NCBI RefSeq assembly: GCF_900184265.1
Contig: NZ_FXXA01000002.1
Span: 2,280,539 to 2,344,538 of the forward strand
Reading direction: 5' to 3'
From: Eggerthella timonensis
GTDB taxonomy: Bacteria > Actinomycetota > Coriobacteriia > Coriobacteriales > Eggerthellaceae
DNA length: 64,000 nucleotides
Below the pieces are notes generated by a model that saw only the letters and a program-made list of their open reading frames with translations, was not told the DNA's origin and did no database searches. Below, piece by piece: positions 4,661 through 14,351 of this stretch. A program made the translations under genes and the position numbers. Positions within the stretch are counted from its first letter, which is position 1, and the number at the start of each line of letters is the position of its first letter.

Positions 4661-4992
4661 TGGCGACGATGGGCTGGGGCGATTACTTCGTCGTGCTGGG
4701 CTGCTGCGCGCTCACCATGCTGGTATGCCGCGTGGTTCCGCTGTTCGTCCTCAAGGGCAAGGAGCTGCCGCAGGGGGTCGAGCAGGCGCTCGGCTTCATC
4801 CCGCCGGCCGCGTTCGCCGCGCTCGTGGCGAACGACCTTCTGACGCCCGGGATGTTCGACGCGGGGCTGTGGCCGGCCGCCGCGCCGCTGGTCGCCGCGC
4901 TCGTGGTGGCGCTCGTCGCGTGGAAGACGAAGTCGCTTCTGTGGTGCGCCGTGTCGGGCGTGGCCGCCTACGCGCTGCTCACGCTGGTGTAG
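4660..4992 (+). CDS. azlD: AzlD family branched-chain amino acid exporter small subunit
   Basis: A 110-residue hydrophobic protein with about four membrane segments and the AzlD signature RVVPLFVLKGKELP followed by LGFIPPAAFAALVANDLL. It is the small partner of AzlC and its ATG overlaps the azlC stop by one base, so the two are translationally coupled. The downstream stretch to 5173 holds no gene; a TTGTGCGA direct repeat (5121 and 5150) is the only pattern seen there. Confidence 0.92.
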   Translation: MATMGWGDYFVVLGCCALTMLVCRVVPLFVLKGKELPQGVEQALGFIPPAAFAALVANDLLTPGMFDAGLWPAAAPLVAALVVALVAWKTKSLLWCAVSGVAAYALLTLV

Positions 4993-5173
4993 GGCGCAGC
5001 GTCGGCGACGGATCGGCGCGCCCCTTTCGCATGGGGCACGGAGGGCCTTCGTGAAGGGAGAGCGGGCCGAGAGGCGGTTTCCCTGTGGGCATGGCCTGTG
5101 CCCTCGCACGCGAGGAGGCGTTGTGCGAGAATGAACAGTTGACGGTACCTTGTGCGAAAGGCGTGCACCTATC

Positions 5174-6106
5174 ATGACGCAGACCCCCTCGGCGCTCTTC
5201 GATTCGGCGAACTTCGTGGTGCTCTACATCCGCTGCGATGCGTTCGAGCGCTGCCTGCGGGCGCACGGGCTCAGTGCAACGCAGCTTGCCGTGCTGCTCA
5301 AGCTCGAGGAGATCGACGGTGCCGAAACCGCCATCCAGGACCTCGCGGAGCTCGTGCGCGTCCAGCCGAACGTGGTCACCCAGGCCGCCAACGAGCTCGA
5401 GCGGCTCGGATTCGCCGAGCGCTGCACGCGAAGCGGGGACGGCCGTTCGAAGTACCTGCTGGTCACCAAGCGGGGACGGGAGTTCCTTTCTCAGTTCGAC
5501 GGCGAGCTTTACGTGGCGCTGGAGGATCTGTTCTCACCCGAGGGCGGCATGCAGATTCGCGACGTTTTCGAGCGAGGCCTGCGCATCGGCGCGCGAGTGG
5601 GAGAGCTGTGGTCCGAGTCGTTCGTCGAGCGGTATCCTTCGGCCACCAACCTCGTGGCGGTCACTTCGTTTTTGCGCCGCGTCGAGCGCGAGCTGCGCAA
5701 AGGGGAGGGGACCACGCTGAGCGAGGCGCGCGTGCTGCAACGGCTCGACGAAGTGAGCCTGCCCATGCGTGTGGTCGACCTGTCCACCTACCTGCGCCTT
5801 CCTGCGGCTACCGTAACGCGCGCGGCATCGAAGCTTGAACAGTCGGGTCTTGTCGAACGGCTGGTCAGCCGCCATGATCGCAAGGCCGTCTACTTCGATC
5901 TCACCGACAAGGGCCGTTTGTCTGCCGCGTCCATCGAGCGCACGCTCAACCGCCTCAGCAACGAGATGTACTGGGGACGGCTTCCGGCCGACGACCTGTC
6001 GGTCACCGATCGAATCAAGGAGCACACGCTTGCCGTCATCCGCTCCGCCGAGCAGCGCGAGCGCGACGAGCGCCTCGCGGCCTTGGAATCGGCGGCTCGC
6101 CGCTAG
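5174..6106 (+). CDS. Tandem MarR-type transcriptional regulator A
   Basis: A 310-residue cytosolic regulator made of two MarR-like winged-helix units in one chain, at roughly 15-130 and 165-290. Each unit has a helix-turn-helix and a wing; the second contains LPAATVTRAASKLEQSGLVERL then SRHDRKAVYFDLTDKG, typical of MarR. A single chain with both halves could bind one palindrome without dimerising. It lies directly upstream of a strong promoter and a perfect 17-bp palindrome (6186-6202), its likely operator. A paralogue occupies the same place in the next cassette (9463). The ATG at 5174 gives the start that aligns with the paralogue. The ligand is unknown; a substrate of the reductases is the obvious guess. 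Confidence 0.85.
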   Translation: MTQTPSALFDSANFVVLYIRCDAFERCLRAHGLSATQLAVLLKLEEIDGAETAIQDLAELVRVQPNVVTQAANELERLGFAERCTRSGDGRSKYLLVTKRGREFLSQFDGELYVALEDLFSPEGGMQIRDVFERGLRIGARVGELWSESFVERYPSATNLVAVTSFLRRVERELRKGEGTTLSEARVLQRLDEVSLPMRVVDLSTYLRLPAATVTRAASKLEQSGLVERLVSRHDRKAVYFDLTDKGRLSAASIERTLNRLSNEMYWGRLPADDLSVTDRIKEHTLAVIRSAEQRERDERLAALESAARR

Positions 6107-6145
6107 CGTGCCGCGCCGCGTTCGAGCGGTTTTCTCCGAAATAGC

Positions 6146-6173
6146 TTGACAACCCTCTATCTGACTGTATCAT
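6146..6173 (+). promoter_or_regulatory. Strong sigma-70 promoter of cassette A
   Basis: TTGACA (6146-6151), 16-base spacer, TATCAT (6168-6173). It drives the reductase/FMN genes downstream of regulator A. The region is markedly AT-rich compared with its surroundings. Confidence 0.8.
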
Positions 6174-6185
6174 GCAAATATAAAG

Positions 6186-6202
6186 TTACCTAAGTTAGGT
6201 AA
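6186..6202. promoter_or_regulatory. Perfect 17-bp palindrome, likely operator of regulator A
   Basis: TTACCTAAGTTAGGTAA has two perfect 8-bp arms around a central G. It starts 13 bases after the -10 box, where a bound repressor would block transcription. The site differs from the one in cassette B (10479-10511), which suggests that the two regulators have separate targets. Confidence 0.7.
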
Positions 6203-6267
6203 TGAAAAAGATATGGGAAGATTGGAAATGCGGTCGAGTGCCGCGAGTCGGAAGGGAAGGGAAGCCG

Positions 6268-6998
6268 ATGGGAACCGAATTGAATCGAAGGGAGTTCCTG
6301 CTGGGGATGGGTGCGAGCGGTTTGGCCGTCGCAGGCGCGGGGATGCTGGCGGGGTGCGCTTCGGGGGAGGACGCCCAGAGGGCGGCTGCCAAGGAGGAGC
6401 CTGCGGAAGCCGTGGGCCGGACGGACGCTCCTTCGTCGTGTTCGACTCCAACTGGGACGAGTACCTCCAGACGTTCGGGCAGAAGGCGTGCCGGGAGCCC
6501 ATCCAAGAGGGCGTCGCCCGCCAGCCGCTCGTCCCCGAGTACTATCAGGACTACCATGCGGGCGTCCAGGACGCGATCGATGCGGGCATCATCAAGGAAT
6601 GCGGTACGCTTGCAGAGCTGGCCGAAGAGCTCGGACTCGATGCCGACGTGCTCGTGCGCACGGTTGAGGATTGGAACGCCATGGTGGCGACCGGGCACGA
6701 CGACGAGGTCTTCCCCTATGAGGACGGCTGGCTGCATCCTGTCGACACGCCGCCCTACTACGGGGCGAAGATCAGCGGGAACCTGTTCATGACGCAGACG
6801 GGGCTGCTCGTGAACACGAGGTTGCAAGTGCTTGACACCGAAGGGCGCGCGATCCCCGGCCTGTACGCCGGTTGGCATACCGCCGGCGGCGCGGCGGCGC
6901 CCGTTGCCGTGACCAGCATGGCATTCGACACAGGCGGCGTGAGCAAGTCCTACCTTGGCGGCTATCTGGCTGCGGAGAGCATCGCCGAGCTCGAGTAG
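6268..6998 (+). pseudogene. Decayed Tat-exported flavin reductase (internal deletion and frameshift)
   Basis: A good Shine-Dalgarno (AAGGGAAGGGAAG) and ATG begin a Tat lipoprotein signal, NRREFLLGMGASGLAVAGAG then lipobox LAGC. After about 55 codons the frame turns into a non-homologous reading. The genuine C-terminal third of the family resumes in another frame at about 6435 (FVVFDSNWDEYLQTFGQKAC) and runs to the stop at 6998. About 380 residues, including the FAD dinucleotide motif, are missing relative to the intact paralogues at 7579 and 10573. The middle of the remnant resembles the cassette B enzyme, while its ends resemble the cassette A enzyme, so it looks like a recombination product. 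It cannot make a working reductase. Confidence 0.85.
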
Positions 6999-7098
6999 AT
7001 CACCTCTCGCGGCCCCGGGGGCTTCCAACCCCTCCCTCCCTGGAGTTCCCGGTGGCCGCTTCACCTGCATTCAACCATCCAACAGAAAGGAAGGCATC

Positions 7099-7497
7099 AT
7101 GGTCGACATCAAACGGAAGGTTCGCCGCACTGCCCGCGCGGCCGGCGCGGCGGCGGTGTGCGCCTCGTTCGCGCTGGGCGCCGCCGGCTGCGGCGGGGCC
7201 CAGGCGGCGGGCAAGTACGTGCCCGGAACCTACACGGGCGAGGGCAACGGCATGAGCGGCCCCATAAAGGTAGAGCTCACGGTGGACGCGGAGTCCATCG
7301 CCAGCGTCGACTCCATAACTGATTCCGGCGAGACCAAGGGCGTCGGCGGCAAGGAGGCCATCGAGGACGGCACCTTCGCCGCCCAGATCATCGAGGCCCA
7401 GTCCTCCGAGATAGACGGCGTGTCCGGCGCCACGGTGACCACGGGCGGCGTCAAGCAGGCGGTGGACAACGCGCTCGCCCAGGCGGCGAACGAGTAA
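7099..7497 (+). CDS. FMN-binding domain lipoprotein (flavinylated electron carrier) A
   Basis: A 132-residue exported protein: basic N-terminus, hydrophobic signal segment and an AAGC lipobox at about residue 31, followed by one FMN-binding domain. It carries DGVSGATVTT (106-115), the site where ApbE-type transferases attach FMN to a threonine. It would shuttle electrons outside the membrane to the reductase encoded 81 bases downstream. AGAAAGGAAGG precedes the ATG. It is a near copy of the gene at 12338, with identical stretches of 69-70 bases. ApbE itself is encoded at 12808. Covalent flavinylation is inferred from the motif, not shown. Confidence 0.88.
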   Translation: MVDIKRKVRRTARAAGAAAVCASFALGAAGCGGAQAAGKYVPGTYTGEGNGMSGPIKVELTVDAESIASVDSITDSGETKGVGGKEAIEDGTFAAQIIEAQSSEIDGVSGATVTTGGVKQAVDNALAQAANE

Positions 7498-7509
7498 GGA
7501 TGTAAAGGA

Positions 7510-7541
7510 CGGGCCGAAAGGGCAAGCCCCCTTTTGGCCCG
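7510..7541 (+). terminator. Intergenic hairpin between FMN protein A and reductase A
   Basis: Arms 7510-7522 (CGGGCCGAAAGGG) and 7529-7541 pair with one G-T wobble. There is no following T-run, so it may be a processing or attenuation hairpin rather than a full terminator. Confidence 0.5.
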
Positions 7542-7578
7542 ACGAAGGGCCGGAAGGCTCGAAGGGGAGTGGTTCGAG

Positions 7579-9309
7579 ATGGAAAAGACGATGGACAGGC
7601 GCGATTTCCTGCTGGGCATGGGGGCGGGAGGCCTCGCCATGGCGGGGGCCGGCCTGCTGGGCGGCTGCGCCGCTCCTGCTCCCGAGGGAGCGGCTCAGGC
7701 GAAGGCGGCGCCCGACGAAGGAGGGGCTTCCGATGGGGCGCCGAAGGGCATAGCCTCCACGGCGCCCATCGAGCCGGTCGGCGTTCCGCAGGCGTGGGAC
7801 AAGGAAGCCGACGTCGTGGTGGTGGGCATGGGCGGAGGAGGCTTGAACGCCGCTTCGCGCGCACGGCAGCTGGGCCTCTCGGTCATCATCATCGACAAGC
7901 TGGCGCGCCCCGGCGGCAACAGCCAGAGCGCCACCATGTTCACCATCGGGGGCGGCACGCCCGAGCAAGACGCCGTCGGCTTCGCCACGCCGTCGTTCCC
8001 CTACGAGGTCGACAAATGGGTCGACCATATGATGACGGGCCTGGGCCAGGGCGGCAACCCCGAGATGCTGCGCCTCATCGGCGAGAACATGCCGAAGTGC
8101 TTCAGCTGGATGACCGAGACCTACGGGCTCGAGTGGACGATGGGTCCGAACGCGTCCTATTTCTTCGTGCAGCAGGACGGCATGACCAAGATCATCGACG
8201 CTGCCTCGTCCTATGCCCAGGGCGAGGGCGCGGAGTTCATCCAGAGCTGCGAGGCGCAAGCCCTCGTGATGGATGGGGATCGCGTCGTGGGCGTGAAGGC
8301 GAAGCAGGGCGACGGTTCGGAGATCTTCCTGCACGGCTCGAAGGCGGTGCTGCTTACCGGCGGCGGCTTCGCGGCCAACAAAGACCTGCTCGCCGAGCAC
8401 TGTCCGAGCGCGCTCGAGCGCGCCAAGGCGTGCTACCTGGCCAACACCGATACCGGAGAGTGCTTCCGCATGGGGCTCGGCGCGGGCGCGGACATCGTGA
8501 ACCGCAACTGCTACACCATGTTCGACGGCGGGATGGACTGGGAGGGCCATGGCGGCGAATGGTGCCACTACCTGTTCGACGGTGCCACGCAGCTCGTGCG
8601 TCAGCCATGGCTGGCCATCAAGAAGGATGGATCGCGCATCCGCTACATCGACATCATGGAGAGCATGGGCGCGCTGACCGATCTGGCCGCCGTGCAAAGC
8701 GCGTCTCCCGGAGGCGAGAGCTACGTGGTGTTCGACGGCCGTTGGGACGACTATCTCAAGGGCGTCGAGAACTACATGTCGGGCTTTTGCCAGTACGAAT
8801 GCCGCATGCCCGTGCAGGACGGCATGTACAAGCAGGCCGATATCCCCGAGTACTACCAGGACTACCATCAGGGCGTGCAGGATGCCATCGACGTGGGCGT
8901 CATCTGCGAGTGCGACACCCTCGAGGAGCTTGCCCGCGAATTGGGGCTTGACGAGGAGGTGCTGGGCGCGTCGGTGGAGAAGTGGAACGACATGGTGGCC
9001 TCGGGCAAGGACGACTTCGTCTACCCCTACAAGGAGCAGTGGCTCCATCCCATCTCCGAACCGCCTTTCTACGGCGCCAAGCTGGGAGGCTTCCTGTTCA
9101 TGACGCAGACGGGCCTGCTCGTCAACACGAAGATGCAGGTTGTGTCCTCGACGGGCGCGGTCATCCCCGGGCTGTACGCGGGCTGGCATACCGCCGGCGG
9201 CGCGGGAGCGCCCGACACGGTGACCAGCATGACCTTCGACACGGGCGGCGTGAGCAAGTCCTATCTGGGCGGTTACCTGGCCGCCGGCTTCATCGCAGAG
9301 GAGGAGTGA
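7579..9309 (+). CDS. Tat-exported FAD-dependent reductase A (fumarate-reductase-like flavoprotein)
   Basis: A 576-residue lipoprotein flavoenzyme of the FAD_binding_2 family. It has a twin-arginine signal (MDRRDFLLGMGAGG) with a lipobox ending at Cys30. The FAD dinucleotide motif VVVVGMGGGGLNAASRARQ is followed by RPGGNSQSATMF and, near the C-terminus, GLLVNTKMQVVSSTGAVIPG and LYAGWHTAGGA. The histidine motif of true fumarate reductases (HHTMGG) is replaced here by FMTQTG, so the natural acceptor is probably not fumarate. Related Eggerthella enzymes reduce diet- or host-derived molecules at the cell surface. Electrons would come from the flavinylated partner at 7099. Substrate unknown. Confidence 0.87.
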   Translation: MEKTMDRRDFLLGMGAGGLAMAGAGLLGGCAAPAPEGAAQAKAAPDEGGASDGAPKGIASTAPIEPVGVPQAWDKEADVVVVGMGGGGLNAASRARQLGLSVIIIDKLARPGGNSQSATMFTIGGGTPEQDAVGFATPSFPYEVDKWVDHMMTGLGQGGNPEMLRLIGENMPKCFSWMTETYGLEWTMGPNASYFFVQQDGMTKIIDAASSYAQGEGAEFIQSCEAQALVMDGDRVVGVKAKQGDGSEIFLHGSKAVLLTGGGFAANKDLLAEHCPSALERAKACYLANTDTGECFRMGLGAGADIVNRNCYTMFDGGMDWEGHGGEWCHYLFDGATQLVRQPWLAIKKDGSRIRYIDIMESMGALTDLAAVQSASPGGESYVVFDGRWDDYLKGVENYMSGFCQYECRMPVQDGMYKQADIPEYYQDYHQGVQDAIDVGVICECDTLEELARELGLDEEVLGASVEKWNDMVASGKDDFVYPYKEQWLHPISEPPFYGAKLGGFLFMTQTGLLVNTKMQVVSSTGAVIPGLYAGWHTAGGAGAPDTVTSMTFDTGGVSKSYLGGYLAAGFIAEEE

Positions 9310-9462
9310 GGGAAGGCTTCGAGCCGCGAATCCGACTGACGTGGTTTTATTTTATCGACGCAATGATATCATGACGGTTTGAAATGGAATCGGGTATGAT
9401 CGGAGGGGATGCGCGCTCGTGCGCGTCTCCTCCGAACGTCTGCCATGCGAAGAGAGATTGCG

Positions 9463-10380
9463 ATGCGCACCTTGCCCTACTTCGATTCTGTGAACTTCAT
9501 CGTGCTCGACGAGCGCTACCGTCTTCTCGACCGGGTGCTCGTCGCCAACGATCTCAGCCTCACGAAGCATTGCGTGCTGCTGAAGTGCGTCGAGCTCGAA
9601 GGCGTCAAAGTGCCTACCAAGGATATAGCGGAGATGCTCGGGCTCAAGCCGAGCATCGTCACCCAGGCGGTCAACGACCTCGAGGGCCGGGGCCTCGTCG
9701 AGCGCCTCGCGTCGGAGGCTGACGCGCGCGCGAAGCACGTCGTCATCGCGTCGGCCGGCCGCGAGCTCGTCGACAAGGTGGACGGGGAGCTGTACGCTTC
9801 GATGCGGGAGCTGTTCAATCCCGAGGGCAACGCCGAGAACCGCGGGTTCCTCGAGCGGGGTCTGCGCGTGGGCGGCAAGATCGGCGGCATATGGTCGACG
9901 AAGCTGATCGAGGCGTTCCCCTCGTCGACGAACCTGACCGCTATCTCCTTGTTCAGGCGCAGCGTCGAACAGGAGCTCAAGGATGCGACGAGGCTCTCGC
10001 TCAGCGAATGCCGCGTGCTCCAGCGCCTCGACGAGGCAGGCGAGCCCCTCCGTATCGGCGATCTGGCCGATCAGATGAGGCTCTCGCCGACGATCGCCAC
10101 GCGCGCGGGCGCGGGCCTCGAACGCGCGGGCCTCGTTCGGCGCCTCTTGAGCCCCGACGACCGCAAAGCCGTCTACCTCGAGCCCACCGAGGAGGGGGAG
10201 CGGGTGCAGGACGCGATCGCCGAGCGCCTCGACGCGATTGGGCGCGACCGTTATTGGGGACGTCTCGACGCGCAGGATCTCGAGGCCACGATGAAGATCC
10301 GCGAGCTCTTCGACCTCGCGAGGAACCGTCGAGCCGAGGAGGAGCGCCGCCGCGCCCTCGCATCGCTTGAAGCCCGCTGA
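9463..10380 (+). CDS. Tandem MarR-type transcriptional regulator B
   Basis: A 305-residue paralogue of the protein at 5174 with the same two winged-helix halves. The two share the opening FDS.NF.VL pattern, PSIVTQAVNDLEGRGLVERL in the first unit, and LSPDDRKAVYLEPTEEGERV in the second. AGAGAG lies just before the ATG at 9463, which is preferred over an unsupported ATG at 9445. It precedes the second promoter/palindrome and reductase. A short palindrome ATGATATCAT (9363-9372) upstream might serve autoregulation. Role inferred from position: control of the genes at 10573-13806. Confidence 0.85.
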   Translation: MRTLPYFDSVNFIVLDERYRLLDRVLVANDLSLTKHCVLLKCVELEGVKVPTKDIAEMLGLKPSIVTQAVNDLEGRGLVERLASEADARAKHVVIASAGRELVDKVDGELYASMRELFNPEGNAENRGFLERGLRVGGKIGGIWSTKLIEAFPSSTNLTAISLFRRSVEQELKDATRLSLSECRVLQRLDEAGEPLRIGDLADQMRLSPTIATRAGAGLERAGLVRRLLSPDDRKAVYLEPTEEGERVQDAIAERLDAIGRDRYWGRLDAQDLEATMKIRELFDLARNRRAEEERRRALASLEAR

Positions 10381-10445
10381 GCAGCTTCCGCGCCGCCTTC
10401 GCGGGCCCCTCTTCATCGCCGCGTCGCTTTTCTTGCAGAAAAACC

Positions 10446-10474
10446 TTGACAAGCCTATTTTCCGATTCTATATT
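10446..10474 (+). promoter_or_regulatory. Strong sigma-70 promoter of cassette B
   Basis: TTGACA (10446-10451), 17-base spacer, TATATT (10469-10474). Near-consensus spacing and an AT-rich surrounding make this one of the clearest promoters in the window. Confidence 0.85.
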
Positions 10475-10478
10475 GCAA

Positions 10479-10511
10479 GTATATTATTGCTCAAATAAAG
10501 CAATAATATAC
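10479..10511. promoter_or_regulatory. 33-bp inverted repeat, likely operator of regulator B
   Basis: Perfect 13-bp arms, GTATATTATTGCT (10479-10491) and its complement (10499-10511), around a 7-base spacer. It begins four bases after the -10 box and covers the start of the transcript. It is not flanked by a T-run and lies upstream of a gene, so an operator is more likely than a terminator. Confidence 0.7.
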
Positions 10512-10572
10512 ATACAGTAATGCCGCAAACAAACAAGCGAAGGGAAGCGGCAAGGAGAGAAGGAGGGCAAGG

Positions 10573-12279
10573 ATGGAGAAGGGGATAGACAGAAGGTCGT
10601 TCCTCGTCGGCGGCGCGGCCGCCGGCATCATGGCGATGGCTGGAGGCGCGCTTGCGGGATGCGCGACCGGGAAGGCCGACGGAGCCGATGCGGCTTCCGG
10701 CAAGACCGGGACGGCGCAGGGCGAGGCGAAGGCCGAAGTCGCGCGGAACGATCGCACGGCCCCCATCGAGCCGGTGGCCGTGCCGGAGAAATGGGACAAG
10801 GAGGTCGACGTCGTGGTGGTGGGCGCGGGCGGCGGCGGCCTGAACGCGGCCTCGCGCGCTTGCCAAGAGGGACTCTCCTGCGTCGTTCTGGAGAAGCTGA
10901 CGCAGCCCGGCGGCAACACGCAGAGCGCGACCATGTTCACGCTGCCTGGCGGCACTGCGCTGCAGAACGAGGCGCAGATCGCGCTCCCCGAATACCCTTA
11001 CGACGCGGTCAAGTGGAACGAGTTCATCGCGAAGAGCTACCATAACGGATACAACCCCGACATGATCAAGCTCATCGGCGAAAACATCGTCCCGTGCTTC
11101 GATTGGATGACCGAGACCTACGGCTTGGAATGGCAGCTGGGCAACGGCGGCACTTACGCCACGGTGGCCCCGGTGGGAATGACCGTCATCACGGAGGCGG
11201 CCTACCGCTACGCCACGGAGAACGGGGCGGAGTTCCTGCTCGGATGCGAGGCGTTGGCGCTCGTCATGGACGGCGAGCGCGTCGTGGGCGTGAAGGCGAA
11301 GGCTCAGGACGGCTCCGAGATTCACCTGCACGGCAAGAAGGGCGTCCTGCTCACGGGAGGCGGCTTCGCGGCGAACAAGGACCTGCTCGCCGAGTACTGC
11401 CCCTCCGCGGTGCGCCGGGCGGTGTCGTGCTACCTCACGAGCACCGACTCCGGGGAATGCTTCCGCATGGGGCTCGGCGCAGGGGCCATGGTCTCGGCGC
11501 GCAACAGCTTCGCCATGTTCGACGGCGGCATGGACTGGGAGAACCATGGCGGCGAGTGGTGCCGCTACCTCTACGACGGGTCGACCCAGCTCGTGCGCCA
11601 GCCATGGCTTTCCATCGATTGCGCGGGGCGAAGGATGCGCTACATTCCTACGAAGGTGGGCGGGGCCCTCACCGACCAGGCCACCGTCGAGACGTCCACG
11701 CCCGACAACCGCGCCTACGTCATCTTCGACTCCAACTGGGATGAGTACCTCCAGACGTTCGGGCAGAAGGCGTGCCGCGAGCCCATCCAGGACGGCGTTG
11801 CGCGTCAGTCCTATGTTCCCGCGTACTACCAGGACTACCATGCGGGCGTCCAAGACGCCATCGATGCGGGGCTCATCTTCGTCTGCGACACTCTCGATGA
11901 GCTTGCGGAGAAGTTGGGCCTCGACGCGGGCGTCGTGAAAGCTTCGGTGGACGATTGGAACGCCATGGTCGCTTCCGGCCACGACGACTTCGTGTTCCCG
12001 CTCGAGGACGAGTGGCTTCATCCCGTGGACGCTCCGCCGTACTACGGCGCGAAGATCGGCGGGAACTTGTTCCAGTCGAAGACGGGGCTGCTCATCAACA
12101 CGAAGATGCAGGTGCTCAACACGAAGGGAACGGTCATCCCCGGCCTGTACGCCGGCTGGTACACGGCGGCATCCGGTATCGACGACCATCTGAGCACCAT
12201 GGCAGCTTCGGTGGGAGGGGTGAGCAACTCCTATTTGGGAGGGTTCTTGGCAATCGGGACGATTGCGGAAGAAGAGTAA
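10573..12279 (+). CDS. Tat-exported FAD-dependent reductase B (fumarate-reductase-like flavoprotein)
   Basis: A 568-residue paralogue of the protein at 7579: twin-arginine signal (IDRRSFLVGGAAAG), lipobox with Cys30, FAD motif VVVVGAGGGGLNAASRACQ, QPGGNTQSATMF, and the C-terminal GLLINTKMQVLNTKGTVIPG. The classical fumarate histidine motif is again absent (LFQSKTG in its place), and the AGWHTAGGA motif of paralogue A reads AGWYTAASG, which suggests a different substrate pocket. AAGGAGAGAAGGAGGG precedes the ATG. It is followed by an FMN-binding lipoprotein (12338) and apbE (12808), a complete set for a flavin-based exported reductase. Substrate unknown. Confidence 0.87.
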   Translation: MEKGIDRRSFLVGGAAAGIMAMAGGALAGCATGKADGADAASGKTGTAQGEAKAEVARNDRTAPIEPVAVPEKWDKEVDVVVVGAGGGGLNAASRACQEGLSCVVLEKLTQPGGNTQSATMFTLPGGTALQNEAQIALPEYPYDAVKWNEFIAKSYHNGYNPDMIKLIGENIVPCFDWMTETYGLEWQLGNGGTYATVAPVGMTVITEAAYRYATENGAEFLLGCEALALVMDGERVVGVKAKAQDGSEIHLHGKKGVLLTGGGFAANKDLLAEYCPSAVRRAVSCYLTSTDSGECFRMGLGAGAMVSARNSFAMFDGGMDWENHGGEWCRYLYDGSTQLVRQPWLSIDCAGRRMRYIPTKVGGALTDQATVETSTPDNRAYVIFDSNWDEYLQTFGQKACREPIQDGVARQSYVPAYYQDYHAGVQDAIDAGLIFVCDTLDELAEKLGLDAGVVKASVDDWNAMVASGHDDFVFPLEDEWLHPVDAPPYYGAKIGGNLFQSKTGLLINTKMQVLNTKGTVIPGLYAGWYTAASGIDDHLSTMAASVGGVSNSYLGGFLAIGTIAEEE

Positions 12280-12337
12280 GCATGCGCGCAGCATCGCGCG
12301 GGATGTTCGGATCGATGAGAGAGGATGGGTCGAGGCT

Positions 12338-12733
12338 ATGAAGACTGCTATGGGCAAGGCCATGCGCGCAGCGGGCGCAGCGGCGGTGTGCGCCTCGTTC
12401 GCGTTGGCGACGACGGGGTGCGCCGCCGGCGCGGCGGAGGCGGCGGGCAAGTACGTGCCCGGAACCTACACGGGCGAGGGCAACGGCATGAGCGGCCCCA
12501 TAAAGGTGGAGCTCACGGTGGACGCGGAGGCCATCACAAGCGTGGACGGCATCTCCGATTCCGGCGAGACCAAGGGCGTCGGCGGCAAGGAGGCCATCGA
12601 GGACGGCACCTTCGCCGCCCAGATCGTCGAGGCCCAGTCCTCCGAGATAGACGGCGTGTCCGGCGCCACGGTGACCACCGGCGGTGTGAAGCAGGCGGTG
12701 GAAAACGCGCTTTCGCAGGCGAAGAGCGAGTAA
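12338..12733 (+). CDS. FMN-binding domain lipoprotein (flavinylated electron carrier) B
   Basis: A 131-residue exported protein with a signal segment and a TTGC lipobox, then a single FMN-binding domain with DGVSGATVTT for covalent FMN attachment. It is almost the same as the protein at 7099 in its mature part. Identical tracts include 7202-7271 with 12438-12507 and 7321-7389 with 12557-12625, while the signal peptides differ. It lies 58 bases after reductase B and is the probable electron donor to it. The ATG at 12338 is chosen because it starts a proper signal peptide; an upstream in-frame start would add a charged segment. Confidence 0.88.
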   Translation: MKTAMGKAMRAAGAAAVCASFALATTGCAAGAAEAAGKYVPGTYTGEGNGMSGPIKVELTVDAEAITSVDGISDSGETKGVGGKEAIEDGTFAAQIVEAQSSEIDGVSGATVTTGGVKQAVENALSQAKSE

Positions 12734-12749
12734 GGCTCGCGCAAAGACG

Positions 12750-12777
12750 ACGGATGCCCGCAGGAGCGGGCATCCGT
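12750..12777 (+). terminator. Perfect 12-bp hairpin between FMN protein B and apbE
   Basis: ACGGATGCCCGC (12750-12761), loop AGGA, and its complement (12766-12777). No T-run follows. It may partly end transcription so that apbE is made at a lower level than the two upstream genes. Confidence 0.55.
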
Positions 12778-12807
12778 CGAGCGCTTTCGAGGATGGAGGA
12801 ACGGGCG

Positions 12808-13806
12808 ATGGCCGAAGCGCTGATGAGAGAGGGCGGCCTCCGCGTAGAGTACGAGGAACCCGATGCGGACGGCTTCGCGTCGTGCAGGTTTTTCGCGTTC
12901 GACACGGTGGTGTCGATACGCGTTGGGACGTGCGTCGGAGCGGAGCGCGCGGCAACCGCCTTCAACGCGCTCGAAAGCGCGGTTGGGCTGTGCCGTCGGT
13001 TCGAGCGGCTCCTATCGAGAACGTCGGCAGGCGGGGACGTATGGAATCTGAATCGCTCGACCGGAGAGCTGATCGAGGTGCATTCCGACACATGGGATGC
13101 GCTGCGGGACGCAAGGCGCTTTTCGGCAGAGAGCGGAGGAACATTCGATTTCACCATGGGAAGCGTGACGCGGCTTTGGGATTTCCATGAAGGGATCGAA
13201 CCCGATGCCGATGAGCTTGCAGACGCGCTCGCCCATGTCGGATGGCGCAAGGTGGAGCTGTTCGAAGCCGACGAGCCCGGCAGGCGGCGGCGTTTCGCGC
13301 GCAAGGCCGACCCTTTCGTCTGCGTCGACGTCGGGGGCACGGCGAAGGGGCTGATAGCCGATCGCGTCTGCGCTTTGCTGCGTCAGGCGGGCGTGCGCTG
13401 CGGATACGTGGATTTGGGCGGCAACATCGCCGTGTTCGGGGGCAAGCCGGAAGGAGCTCCTTGGCTCATCGGCGTGCGCGATCCTTTCGGCAATGAGCAA
13501 CCTGTCGCCATCGTGGCTCTTCGCGACGGGTCGGTTGTGACGAGCGGCGCATCGGAGCGGAGCTTTTTCCGGGCCGGAAGGCTCTTCCACCATATACTCG
13601 ATCCGGTTACCGGCATGCCGGTCGATTCCGATTTGGCCAGCGTGACGCTGGTCGCCCCTACATCGACTGAGGCGGACGGGCGCTCCACCATGGTCTTCGC
13701 CATGGGGCTCGAGCGGGCTCTCGGCTATGTGGAGCGATGCGAGGAGCTCGAGGCGATCCTCGTCGCAAAGGACGGAAGCGTGCTGTCGACGAGCGGGCTG
13801 CGGTGA
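12808..13806 (+). CDS. apbE: FAD:protein FMN transferase
   Basis: ApbE family enzyme (332 residues) that cleaves FAD and links the FMN part to threonine in DGxSGAT motifs of exported proteins. Visible family motifs: DFTMGSVTRLWDFH, VDVGGTAKGLIADRVC, GYVDLGGNIAVFGG, SVVTSGASERSFF, HHILDPVTGMP and TSTEADGRSTMVFAMG with a metal ligand. No lipoprotein signal is visible, unlike many ApbE proteins that act outside the membrane, so the location of flavinylation is open. GGAGGA lies seven bases before the ATG. Its place after two FMN-domain proteins supports the assignment. Confidence 0.92.
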   Translation: MAEALMREGGLRVEYEEPDADGFASCRFFAFDTVVSIRVGTCVGAERAATAFNALESAVGLCRRFERLLSRTSAGGDVWNLNRSTGELIEVHSDTWDALRDARRFSAESGGTFDFTMGSVTRLWDFHEGIEPDADELADALAHVGWRKVELFEADEPGRRRRFARKADPFVCVDVGGTAKGLIADRVCALLRQAGVRCGYVDLGGNIAVFGGKPEGAPWLIGVRDPFGNEQPVAIVALRDGSVVTSGASERSFFRAGRLFHHILDPVTGMPVDSDLASVTLVAPTSTEADGRSTMVFAMGLERALGYVERCEELEAILVAKDGSVLSTSGLR

Positions 13807-13907
13807 TCCTTTCTGGTTTTCGTGCCGAAACGTTTGGCGAGACGCTCGGTAACGGCGCTGCTCTGCGTGAAGAACCCAAGTTTTTGCCGAAGACCTTGGA
13901 TTTCTCC

Positions 13908-13936
13908 TTGCAGTACCATTCCGTTGACGGTATACT
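13908..13936 (+). promoter_or_regulatory. Promoter of rplS
   Basis: TTGCAG (13908-13913), 17-base spacer, TATACT (13931-13936). It gives an untranslated leader of about 60 bases before rplS. A second TTGACG (13924) is too close to this -10 to be its partner. Confidence 0.75.
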
Positions 13937-14003
13937 ATCCAATCGTGTCTTTACAAGATGACATGCAATTAGGTTTCATTGAACATATAAGAAGGAACGG
14001 GTC

Positions 14004-14351
14004 ATGGATATCATTCGCGCCATCGAACAGCAGCAGATCAAGCAGGACGTCCCCGAGTTCAACGTCGGCGACAACGTGAAGGTTCACTACCGCATCACCG
14101 AGGGCAACCGCGAGCGTATCCAGGTGTTCCAGGGCGACGTCATCCGTCGCCAGGGCGCCTCGAACCGTGAGACGTTCACCGTTCGCAAGATCAGCTTCTC
14201 CATCGGCGTGGAGCGCACCTTCCCCGTGCATTCGCCGAAGATCGACCGCATCGAGGTCACGCGCAAGGGCGACGTGCGCCGCGCCAAGCTGTACTACCTC
14301 CGCAAGAAGGTGGGCAAGGCCGCGAAGATCAAGGAGAAGGCCTACCGCTAG
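14004..14351 (+). CDS. rplS: 50S ribosomal protein L19
   Basis: A 115-residue ribosomal protein located at the 30S-50S interface. Sequence features are typical: [71 protein letters not shown]. It has its own promoter and a strong terminator. In many genomes it ends the rpsP-rimM-trmD-rplS group; here those genes are not upstream, the apbE cassette is. Confidence 0.97.

Follow-up and report, generated by a model that had tools for sequence, protein, structure and literature searches.

Cgr2 of Eggerthella lenta, in which six of the seven fumarate reductase residues are divergent, reduces cardenolides, and its closest homologs are described as less than 28% identical to it (PMC5953540). The catechol dehydroxylases of Eggerthella are regulated by DadR, HcdR and CadR, membrane LuxR activators with 10-12 transmembrane (TM) segments, and the type strain is reported to encode 83 transmembrane LuxR proteins, with 50 of the 10-12-TM type near flavin-dependent enzymes (PMC9734109). 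A further described type comprises fumarate reductase-like enzymes clustered with flavin mononucleotide (FMN)-binding proteins, for which the part of the report that treats them names neither regulator nor substrate (PMC8238504). Here we analyse a 64,000-nucleotide (nt) stretch of Eggerthella timonensis (contig NZ_FXXA01000002.1, 2,280,539-2,344,538, forward strand), referred to below as the window, whose positions serve as coordinates. At 5174-13806 it holds a block of eight genes that probably encodes two exported flavin adenine dinucleotide (FAD) reductases, each fed by an FMN lipoprotein and each under the control of its own single-chain MarR repressor, with the two repressors acting independently.

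Each of these systems is matched only in part. The likeness to Cgr1/Cgr2 lies in a reductase of the PF00890 family that is exported by the twin-arginine translocation (Tat) pathway and lacks the fumarate residues, and in a strain-variable gene cluster; the difference is that the partner of Cgr2 is a cytochrome and not an FMN lipoprotein, and that its cluster contains a LuxR-type regulator (PMC5953540). The comparison of Cgr2 with the two intact enzymes of the block, RedA and RedB, is one of description and not of sequence. With the 10-12-TM LuxR systems the block has in common dedicated regulators beside inducible enzymes (PMC9734109), but those regulators are membrane activators whereas the double-MarR proteins of the block look soluble, and no multi-TM LuxR gene occurs among its eight genes. 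The main text of the LuxR study contains no occurrence of 'MarR' (PMC9734109), and a literature search, conducted mostly at the level of titles and abstracts, found nothing on MarR regulators of Eggerthella reductases. The pairing of a PF00890 enzyme with an FMN-binding protein is the same as in the clustered fumarate reductase-like enzymes (PMC8238504).

All eight genes lie on the + strand. Double MarR1 is followed by a broken reductase, an FMN lipoprotein and RedA in cassette 1, and double MarR2 by RedB, an FMN lipoprotein and ApbE in cassette 2:

4993..13863, unstranded: insertion separating azlD from rplS, ~8.87 kb, ends placed to within a few bases
5174..6106, + strand: MarR1, double-MarR regulator of 310 amino acids (aa); two MarR stretches, PF01047 E 3.7e-17
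6268..6998, + strand: broken third reductase; Tat/lipobox N-terminus, internal deletion, frame change, C-terminal piece
7099..7497, + strand: FMN carrier lipoprotein 1; PF04205 E 3e-14, lipobox AAGC, DGVSGAT
7579..9309, + strand: RedA, Tat-exported lipoprotein reductase of 576 aa; PF00890 E 1.5e-29, DRRDFLLG, LGGC
9463..10380, + strand: MarR2, double-MarR regulator of 305 aa; two stretches, PF01047 E 3.8e-23
10573..12279, + strand: RedB, Tat-exported lipoprotein reductase of 568 aa; PF00890 E 1.9e-27, DRRSFLVG, LAGC
12338..12733, + strand: FMN carrier lipoprotein 2; PF04205 E 1e-14, lipobox TTGC, DGVSGAT
12808..13806, + strand: ApbE flavin transferase; PF02424 E 1.4e-73, domain starting at residue 31

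This inventory confirms most of an initial annotation of the same DNA, which had recognised two adjacent cassettes each led by a double MarR (two PF01047 stretches are found in each), two intact Tat lipoprotein reductases (PF00890, twin-arginine N-terminus and lipobox), DGVSGATVTT in both FMN-carrier lipoproteins and a single ApbE. Its count of two intact enzymes stands, although the broken third at 6268-6998 had gone unmentioned. A scan of the eight proteins against NCBIfam gave no row at or above the curated cut-off (for RedA and RedB, among the best 25 of 44 and 62 rows, respectively).

The regulatory signals of the block are arranged as two promoter-palindrome pairs:

6146..6173, + strand: promoter 1, TTGACA-16-TATCAT, 11/12 consensus positions
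6186..6202, unstranded: palindrome and putative MarR1 operator, TTACCTAAGTTAGGTAA, 17 bp with 8-bp arms
10446..10474, + strand: promoter 2, TTGACA-17-TATATT, 11/12 consensus positions
10479..10511, unstranded: palindrome and putative MarR2 operator, GTATATTATTGCT-N7-AGCAATAATATAC, 33 bp with 13-bp arms

Four promoter-like sites were returned by a scan of 4900-14050, against 1.3 +/- 1.2 in shuffles, and each palindrome sits just 3' of its near-consensus -10 box. When the intergenic stretches were shuffled with dinucleotides preserved, the arm length of the first palindrome was matched by eight of 1000 shuffles and that of the second by none of 1000. At a tolerance of up to three mismatches, the genome contains one more site for the first palindrome, which has three mismatches, and no other for the core of the second. 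The initial annotation was thus right that both cassettes carry a promoter and a palindrome, but these palindromes lie between the MarR gene and the next gene and not before the MarR genes. Because the two palindromes are unrelated in sequence, the two switches would be independent of each other. No terminator-like site was seen between RedA and MarR2 in the scan of 4900-14050, so it is possible that transcription from cassette 1 runs on into MarR2.

Judged by their proteins, the cassettes are distant relatives of a module kept in many Eggerthellaceae, which we name the MarR3-RedC module. In E. timonensis its double-MarR gene (MarR3, the third of the genome) lies ~7 kb upstream of MarR1:

L038:4561-10524, just upstream of the window: TetR / cytochrome - FMN carrier - RedC - membrane protein / double MarR

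MarR3 stands at the end of, and convergent with, the genes for the cytochrome, carrier, RedC and a membrane protein that has no Pfam match at E <= 1e-5, with the TetR gene on the other side. Double MarR, FMN_bind lipoprotein and PF00890 enzyme are common to module and cassettes; the module differs in owning a cytochrome, a TetR and a membrane protein, in the convergent, downstream position of its MarR and in its operator-like site. The block accordingly does not reproduce the module's gene order, as it lacks the cytochrome and the membrane protein and both of its MarR genes are co-directional with their cassettes. RedC is 40-44% identical to RedA and RedB, and RedC sequences, full or partial, are ~76-95% identical between genera. 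A 2024 study on gut-bacterial anaerobic respiration may already describe RedC. At eight of the ten named loci a reductase, an FMN carrier, a cytochrome and a membrane protein adjoin the double MarR; in Slackia isoflavoniconvertens MarR is the one module gene that the stretch yielded, and the Gordonibacter pamelaeae locus gave a partial MarR match and no detected FMN carrier. ApbE stands beside the double MarR at two of the ten (L076 and L078), and none of the four ApbE genes of the E. timonensis genome adjoins the MarR3-RedC module. Head-to-tail heptamers of the GTGCTGC type form a short run in the module, between the gene for the membrane protein and that for the double MarR (L038:9321-9386).

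The module is the source of the evidence on how double MarRs may act. In MarR3-type promoters the best GTTTCA-N4-TGAAAC site scores at least 9/12 in 26 of 36 stretches compared with 5.1% of shuffles. Two of these 26 sites are out of place; the other 24 precede the homologous start by 28-79 nt and, judged by eye, mostly follow a -10-like box directly. A similar site, AGTTCA-N4-TGAAA, occurs upstream of the cytochrome gene that heads the RedC operon. It reaches at least 9/11 in 20 of 27 rows, or 18 of the 24 sequences that differ from one another, against 3.4% of shuffles; none of the three rows whose genomes lack a double MarR reaches this score. The shuffles used for both sites preserve base composition only. 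These observations support, without proving, a model in which the double MarR of the module represses its own gene and its reductase operon. Since a related double MarR has a conserved site at both promoters, dedicated regulator-operator pairs become more likely for the cassettes as well, and the initial annotation's view of dedicated regulators with palindromes of their own gains support from this. The half-sites of the MarR3 type are mostly unequal, being equal in 5 of 28 selected regulator-promoter sites and 0 of 17 selected reductase-promoter sites (8 of 36 regulator rows were dropped for want of a clear site, and 10 of 27 reductase rows as duplicate, shifted or absent), which fits a chain with two unlike lobes. 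In the window itself no GTTCA-N4-TGAAA-type site matches at up to one mismatch, and its palindromes differ from the MarR3-type site. A search of the genome for a MarR3 regulon with GTTTCA-N4-TGAAAC at two mismatches returned 41 places against 15 for the control and was too unspecific to use.

MarR1 and MarR2 are 45% identical to each other and 33-38% identical to the double MarR of the module, and both PF01047 and PF12802 were found in all 35 aligned double-MarR members. The predicted model of MarR2 (predicted local distance difference test, pLDDT, 91.0; predicted template modelling score, pTM, 0.85) has SarS as its top solved match by Foldseek, over 264 alignment columns at a root-mean-square deviation (rmsd) of 5.3, and VIA-align superposed 235 residues (4-265 of the model) on SarS (1p4x) at 3.3 Å with a Z of 16.4. 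Most other Foldseek rows listed for MarR2 are, to judge from their titles and lengths, ordinary MarR-type chains of ~130-180 residues. In SarS, as in the MarR2 model, one chain forms two winged-helix lobes; the two proteins differ in that they are 15% identical in the alignment. SarS is a regulator from another phylum and is not known to have a link to reductases. Because the match extends over both lobes, it provides a structural precedent for a single-chain, two-lobe MarR protein. Wing residues of MarR domains have a role in DNA binding, and both lobes retain invariant ones in the double-MarR alignment (D87 and R89; D233 and K235), so both may bind DNA.

PF00890 (FAD_binding_2) matches RedA with 103.9 bits and RedB with 97.0 bits against a cut-off of 20.4, in agreement with the enzyme class first assigned. 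The two are about 60-62% identical, and each carries a Tat lipoprotein signal (DRRDFLLG...LGGC in RedA, DRRSFLVG...LAGC in RedB), export signals having been judged by pattern, hydrophobicity and a lipobox scan rather than by a signal-peptide predictor. The HHTMGG of flavocytochrome c aligns with NLFQSKTG in RedB, and RedA holds FLFMTQTG at this place; the lack of the fumarate histidine motif noted earlier is therefore upheld, as no histidine stands opposite HHTMGG in either enzyme. Neither has an arginine after GLYAGW. In a profile alignment HHTMGG falls opposite the RedC-type consensus and ANRLGG opposite n-s. We take the substrate-binding histidine and arginine of flavocytochrome c to be H504 and R544 of the Shewanella enzyme, and its catalytic cap-domain arginine to be R402; the cap domain was left unaligned in the profile comparison and the RedB model is poor in the cap region. 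Solved relatives of the reductases include urocanate reductase, flavocytochrome c fumarate reductase and ketosteroid dehydrogenases. Many invariant columns are common to RedA, RedB and the RedC-type enzymes, which hints at shared chemistry. In the broken reductase most of the FAD and cap regions is gone, the frame is changed and the C-terminal piece lies in another frame. The genome has 92 PF00890 matches, 71 of which span profile position 1 or 2 to at least 394 of 414, and most of these proteins are expected to be without a known substrate. A further reductase subfamily of the genome is represented at L161:3054-4871 (the same coordinates apply on the contig that also carries the MarR3-RedC module); it is ~41% identical to both RedB and RedC and has relatives in several genera of the family.

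Both carriers contain PF04205 and DGVSGAT, and the latter fits the motif D-x-x-[S/T]-G-A-[S/T] given for flavinylation by ApbE (PMC12052999). The two are 90% identical over 94 aa, compared with about 60% for the adjoining reductases, and this disparity suggests recent exchange between the carriers by gene conversion.

We propose the following course of events. Each MarR would be a single-chain, two-lobed repressor bound to the palindrome near the transcription start of its downstream genes, and would leave the palindrome once a small molecule binds. The derepressed cassette would then make a Tat-exported, lipid-anchored FAD reductase. Electrons would reach it by way of the lipoprotein with covalent FMN; their membrane donor would be the product of a gene outside the cassettes, which contain no such gene. 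The substrate of the reductase would probably be a compound other than fumarate; as the initial annotation proposed, it may be derived from diet or host, and induction may be substrate-specific. What the DNA shows directly is the genes and their order, the motifs, the palindromes, the insertion site and the kinship to the MarR3-RedC module; the remaining steps we infer.

Several observations weigh against this proposal. No copy of either palindrome was found at the MarR1 or MarR2 gene's own promoter, unlike the case of MarR3, and the palindromes of the window are perfect, unlike the unequal MarR3-type halves, a feature that the two-lobe reading does not explain. The gene context, too, is different in the three site-less reductase-promoter rows whose genomes lack a double MarR. 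One of the three cassette reductases is broken, and the RedB model is poor (pLDDT 62.8), so that the substrate pocket is not readable from it. A further difficulty concerns the supply of FMN. No signal peptide was seen on the cassette ApbE, nor a hydrophobic segment before the ApbE domain, and the lipobox-like match FASC at residue 23 has no such segment ahead of it; carrier 2, for its part, has a Sec-like lipoprotein signal without twin arginines. Because the cassette ApbE shows no signal peptide, the step put forward in the initial annotation, in which ApbE flavinylates exported carriers, is not supported as stated. By a simple scan a signal peptide is seen on one of the four ApbE proteins of the genome, another than that of the cassette, though the FMN carriers examined are lipoproteins. 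In Klebsiella a cytosolic ApbE is described as acting on a soluble fumarate reductase (PMC12052999). The carriers would receive their FMN either from the cassette ApbE before export or from an exported ApbE encoded elsewhere.

The double MarRs might instead be activators or act on unrelated genes, with the palindromes serving another regulator or forming stem-loops in a 5' leader. Both palindromes are located at or just past the likely transcription start, which makes action in the RNA leader conceivable. However, relatives keep a site after the -10 box in two separate promoters, those of the regulator and of the reductase operon, a position that suits repression; the site was not found in the three stretches from genomes without the regulator, different as their contexts are; and the palindromes of the window are without a further close genomic copy, so that we regard this explanation as unlikely. 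The role of the enzymes is a separate matter. That they serve detoxification or incidental reduction, and not growth-supporting respiration, is a possibility to which we give some weight while thinking it the less probable of the two: cardenolides are reported to have given no growth advantage through the similar enzyme Cgr2 (PMC5953540), whereas the FMN carriers here and the cytochrome in the related module would suggest coupling to a respiratory chain.

Repression by two dedicated MarRs, our preferred reading, goes together with a view of the block as a lineage-specific insertion carrying two paralogous regulator-reductase modules, and this best explanation as a whole we consider probable. 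The azlD-rplS gap is 0.17-0.36 kb in five of six relatives (three species of the same genus and two other genomes of the family); from the stretch of the sixth both azlD and rplS are absent. Homology with the same-genus species ends at ~4991-4995 and restarts at ~13864, and all three have an empty site. There is no integrase among the eight genes, and the block edges were not searched for short target repeats. With MarR2 and RedB as queries, the other 137 genomes of the family yielded no close copy of the block (no queries of their own were made with RedA, the carriers or ApbE), and the gene order that the initial annotation had proposed to look for in other Eggerthellaceae did not turn up, a related module being all that is held in common. 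Outside its own genome the best identity of MarR2 is at most 38% in 138 family genomes and likewise at most 38% in 396 genomes of the phylum, that of MarR1 at most 36% in 396 genomes of the class and that of RedB at most 47% in the 138; these searches scored the best 5-16 candidates per genome in a collection of one genome per species. The block had no match at near identity among plasmids, and no relative of RedB was found among viral contigs.

With one reductase broken, the block may be decaying, and the lack of a close match to MarR2 and RedB in the other 137 family genomes would also suit an acquisition that has already lost its first reductase and whose remainder is no longer under selection. 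We consider this very unlikely, because the other seven genes are open over their full length with signals and motifs in place, and RedA and RedB have so many invariant columns in common with the RedC-type enzymes. That the cassettes arose locally, as copies of the neighbouring MarR3-RedC module that then diverged fast, and not by the arrival of a separate lineage, appears doubtful. Such an origin would account for the nearness of MarR3 to MarR1 and for the similarity of promoter 1 to the RedC promoter of locus L074, which by eye have a common ATAAAGTT...GAAAAAG frame around a different core, so that promoter 1 looks as if its operator had been swapped in place. In the trees, on the other hand, MarR1 and MarR2 are sisters with 97% support in the Shimodaira-Hasegawa-like approximate likelihood ratio test (SH-aLRT) and lie outside the MarR3 clade (93%), within which the E. 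timonensis MarR3 clusters with that of a sister species (86%); RedA, RedB and the C-terminal remnant of the broken enzyme form one group (100%) separate from the RedC rows; and the three same-genus species have the empty site. Because long branches meet in both the MarR and the reductase tree, which carry a warning to that effect and are not firm, transfer and fast local divergence both stay possible. Beyond the initial annotation, the present analysis contributes the insertion, the broken third reductase, the conserved module and its operator-like site, the likeness of the fold to SarS and the problem posed by ApbE.

A double MarR (E <= 1e-15) is present in 44 of the 138 family genomes, with 47 matches, and 40 of these 47, the three of E. 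timonensis included, lie within 2 kb of a reductase matching RedB at E <= 1e-100. With the same reductase threshold, 41 of the genomes have both MarR and reductase, 3 MarR only, 10 the reductase only and 84 neither, counts that are uncorrected for kinship. In other families of the order, one genome combines FMN carrier, RedC, membrane protein and MarR at locus L169, and in another RedC and MarR share a 3.1-kb contig (L167). Tentatively, and with slightly less than even confidence, we suggest that the single-chain double MarRs found across Coriobacteriia constitute a class of soluble repressors that parallels the membrane LuxR activators, with many members each tied to a single exported respiratory-type reductase. 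In the block, the operators of the pair would have become mutually orthogonal after duplication, which implies that regulator, operator and enzyme changed together, possibly following two new substrates. Should each repressor respond to the compound that its enzyme reduces, a palindrome-bearing promoter fused to a reporter would amount to a substrate screen, and genetic tools for Eggerthella exist (PMC9734109). The MarR3-RedC pair is perhaps the better target for such a screen, as both parts occur in 41 of 138 family genomes and RedC is well kept between genera.

Seven loci with more distant double MarRs were also inspected. At four of them BLAST and a listing of open reading frames, with no Pfam scan, revealed neither a PF00890-type reductase nor a molybdopterin oxidoreductase gene, and not every double MarR therefore pairs with a reductase. 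At two the regulator adjoins a PF00890-type reductase, recognised at L171 by Pfam and at L172 by its BLAST match to RedB. At the remaining one, L175:3322-6901, its neighbour is a divergent gene for a molybdopterin oxidoreductase, a hint that respiratory-type enzymes of other kinds are likewise served by double MarRs.

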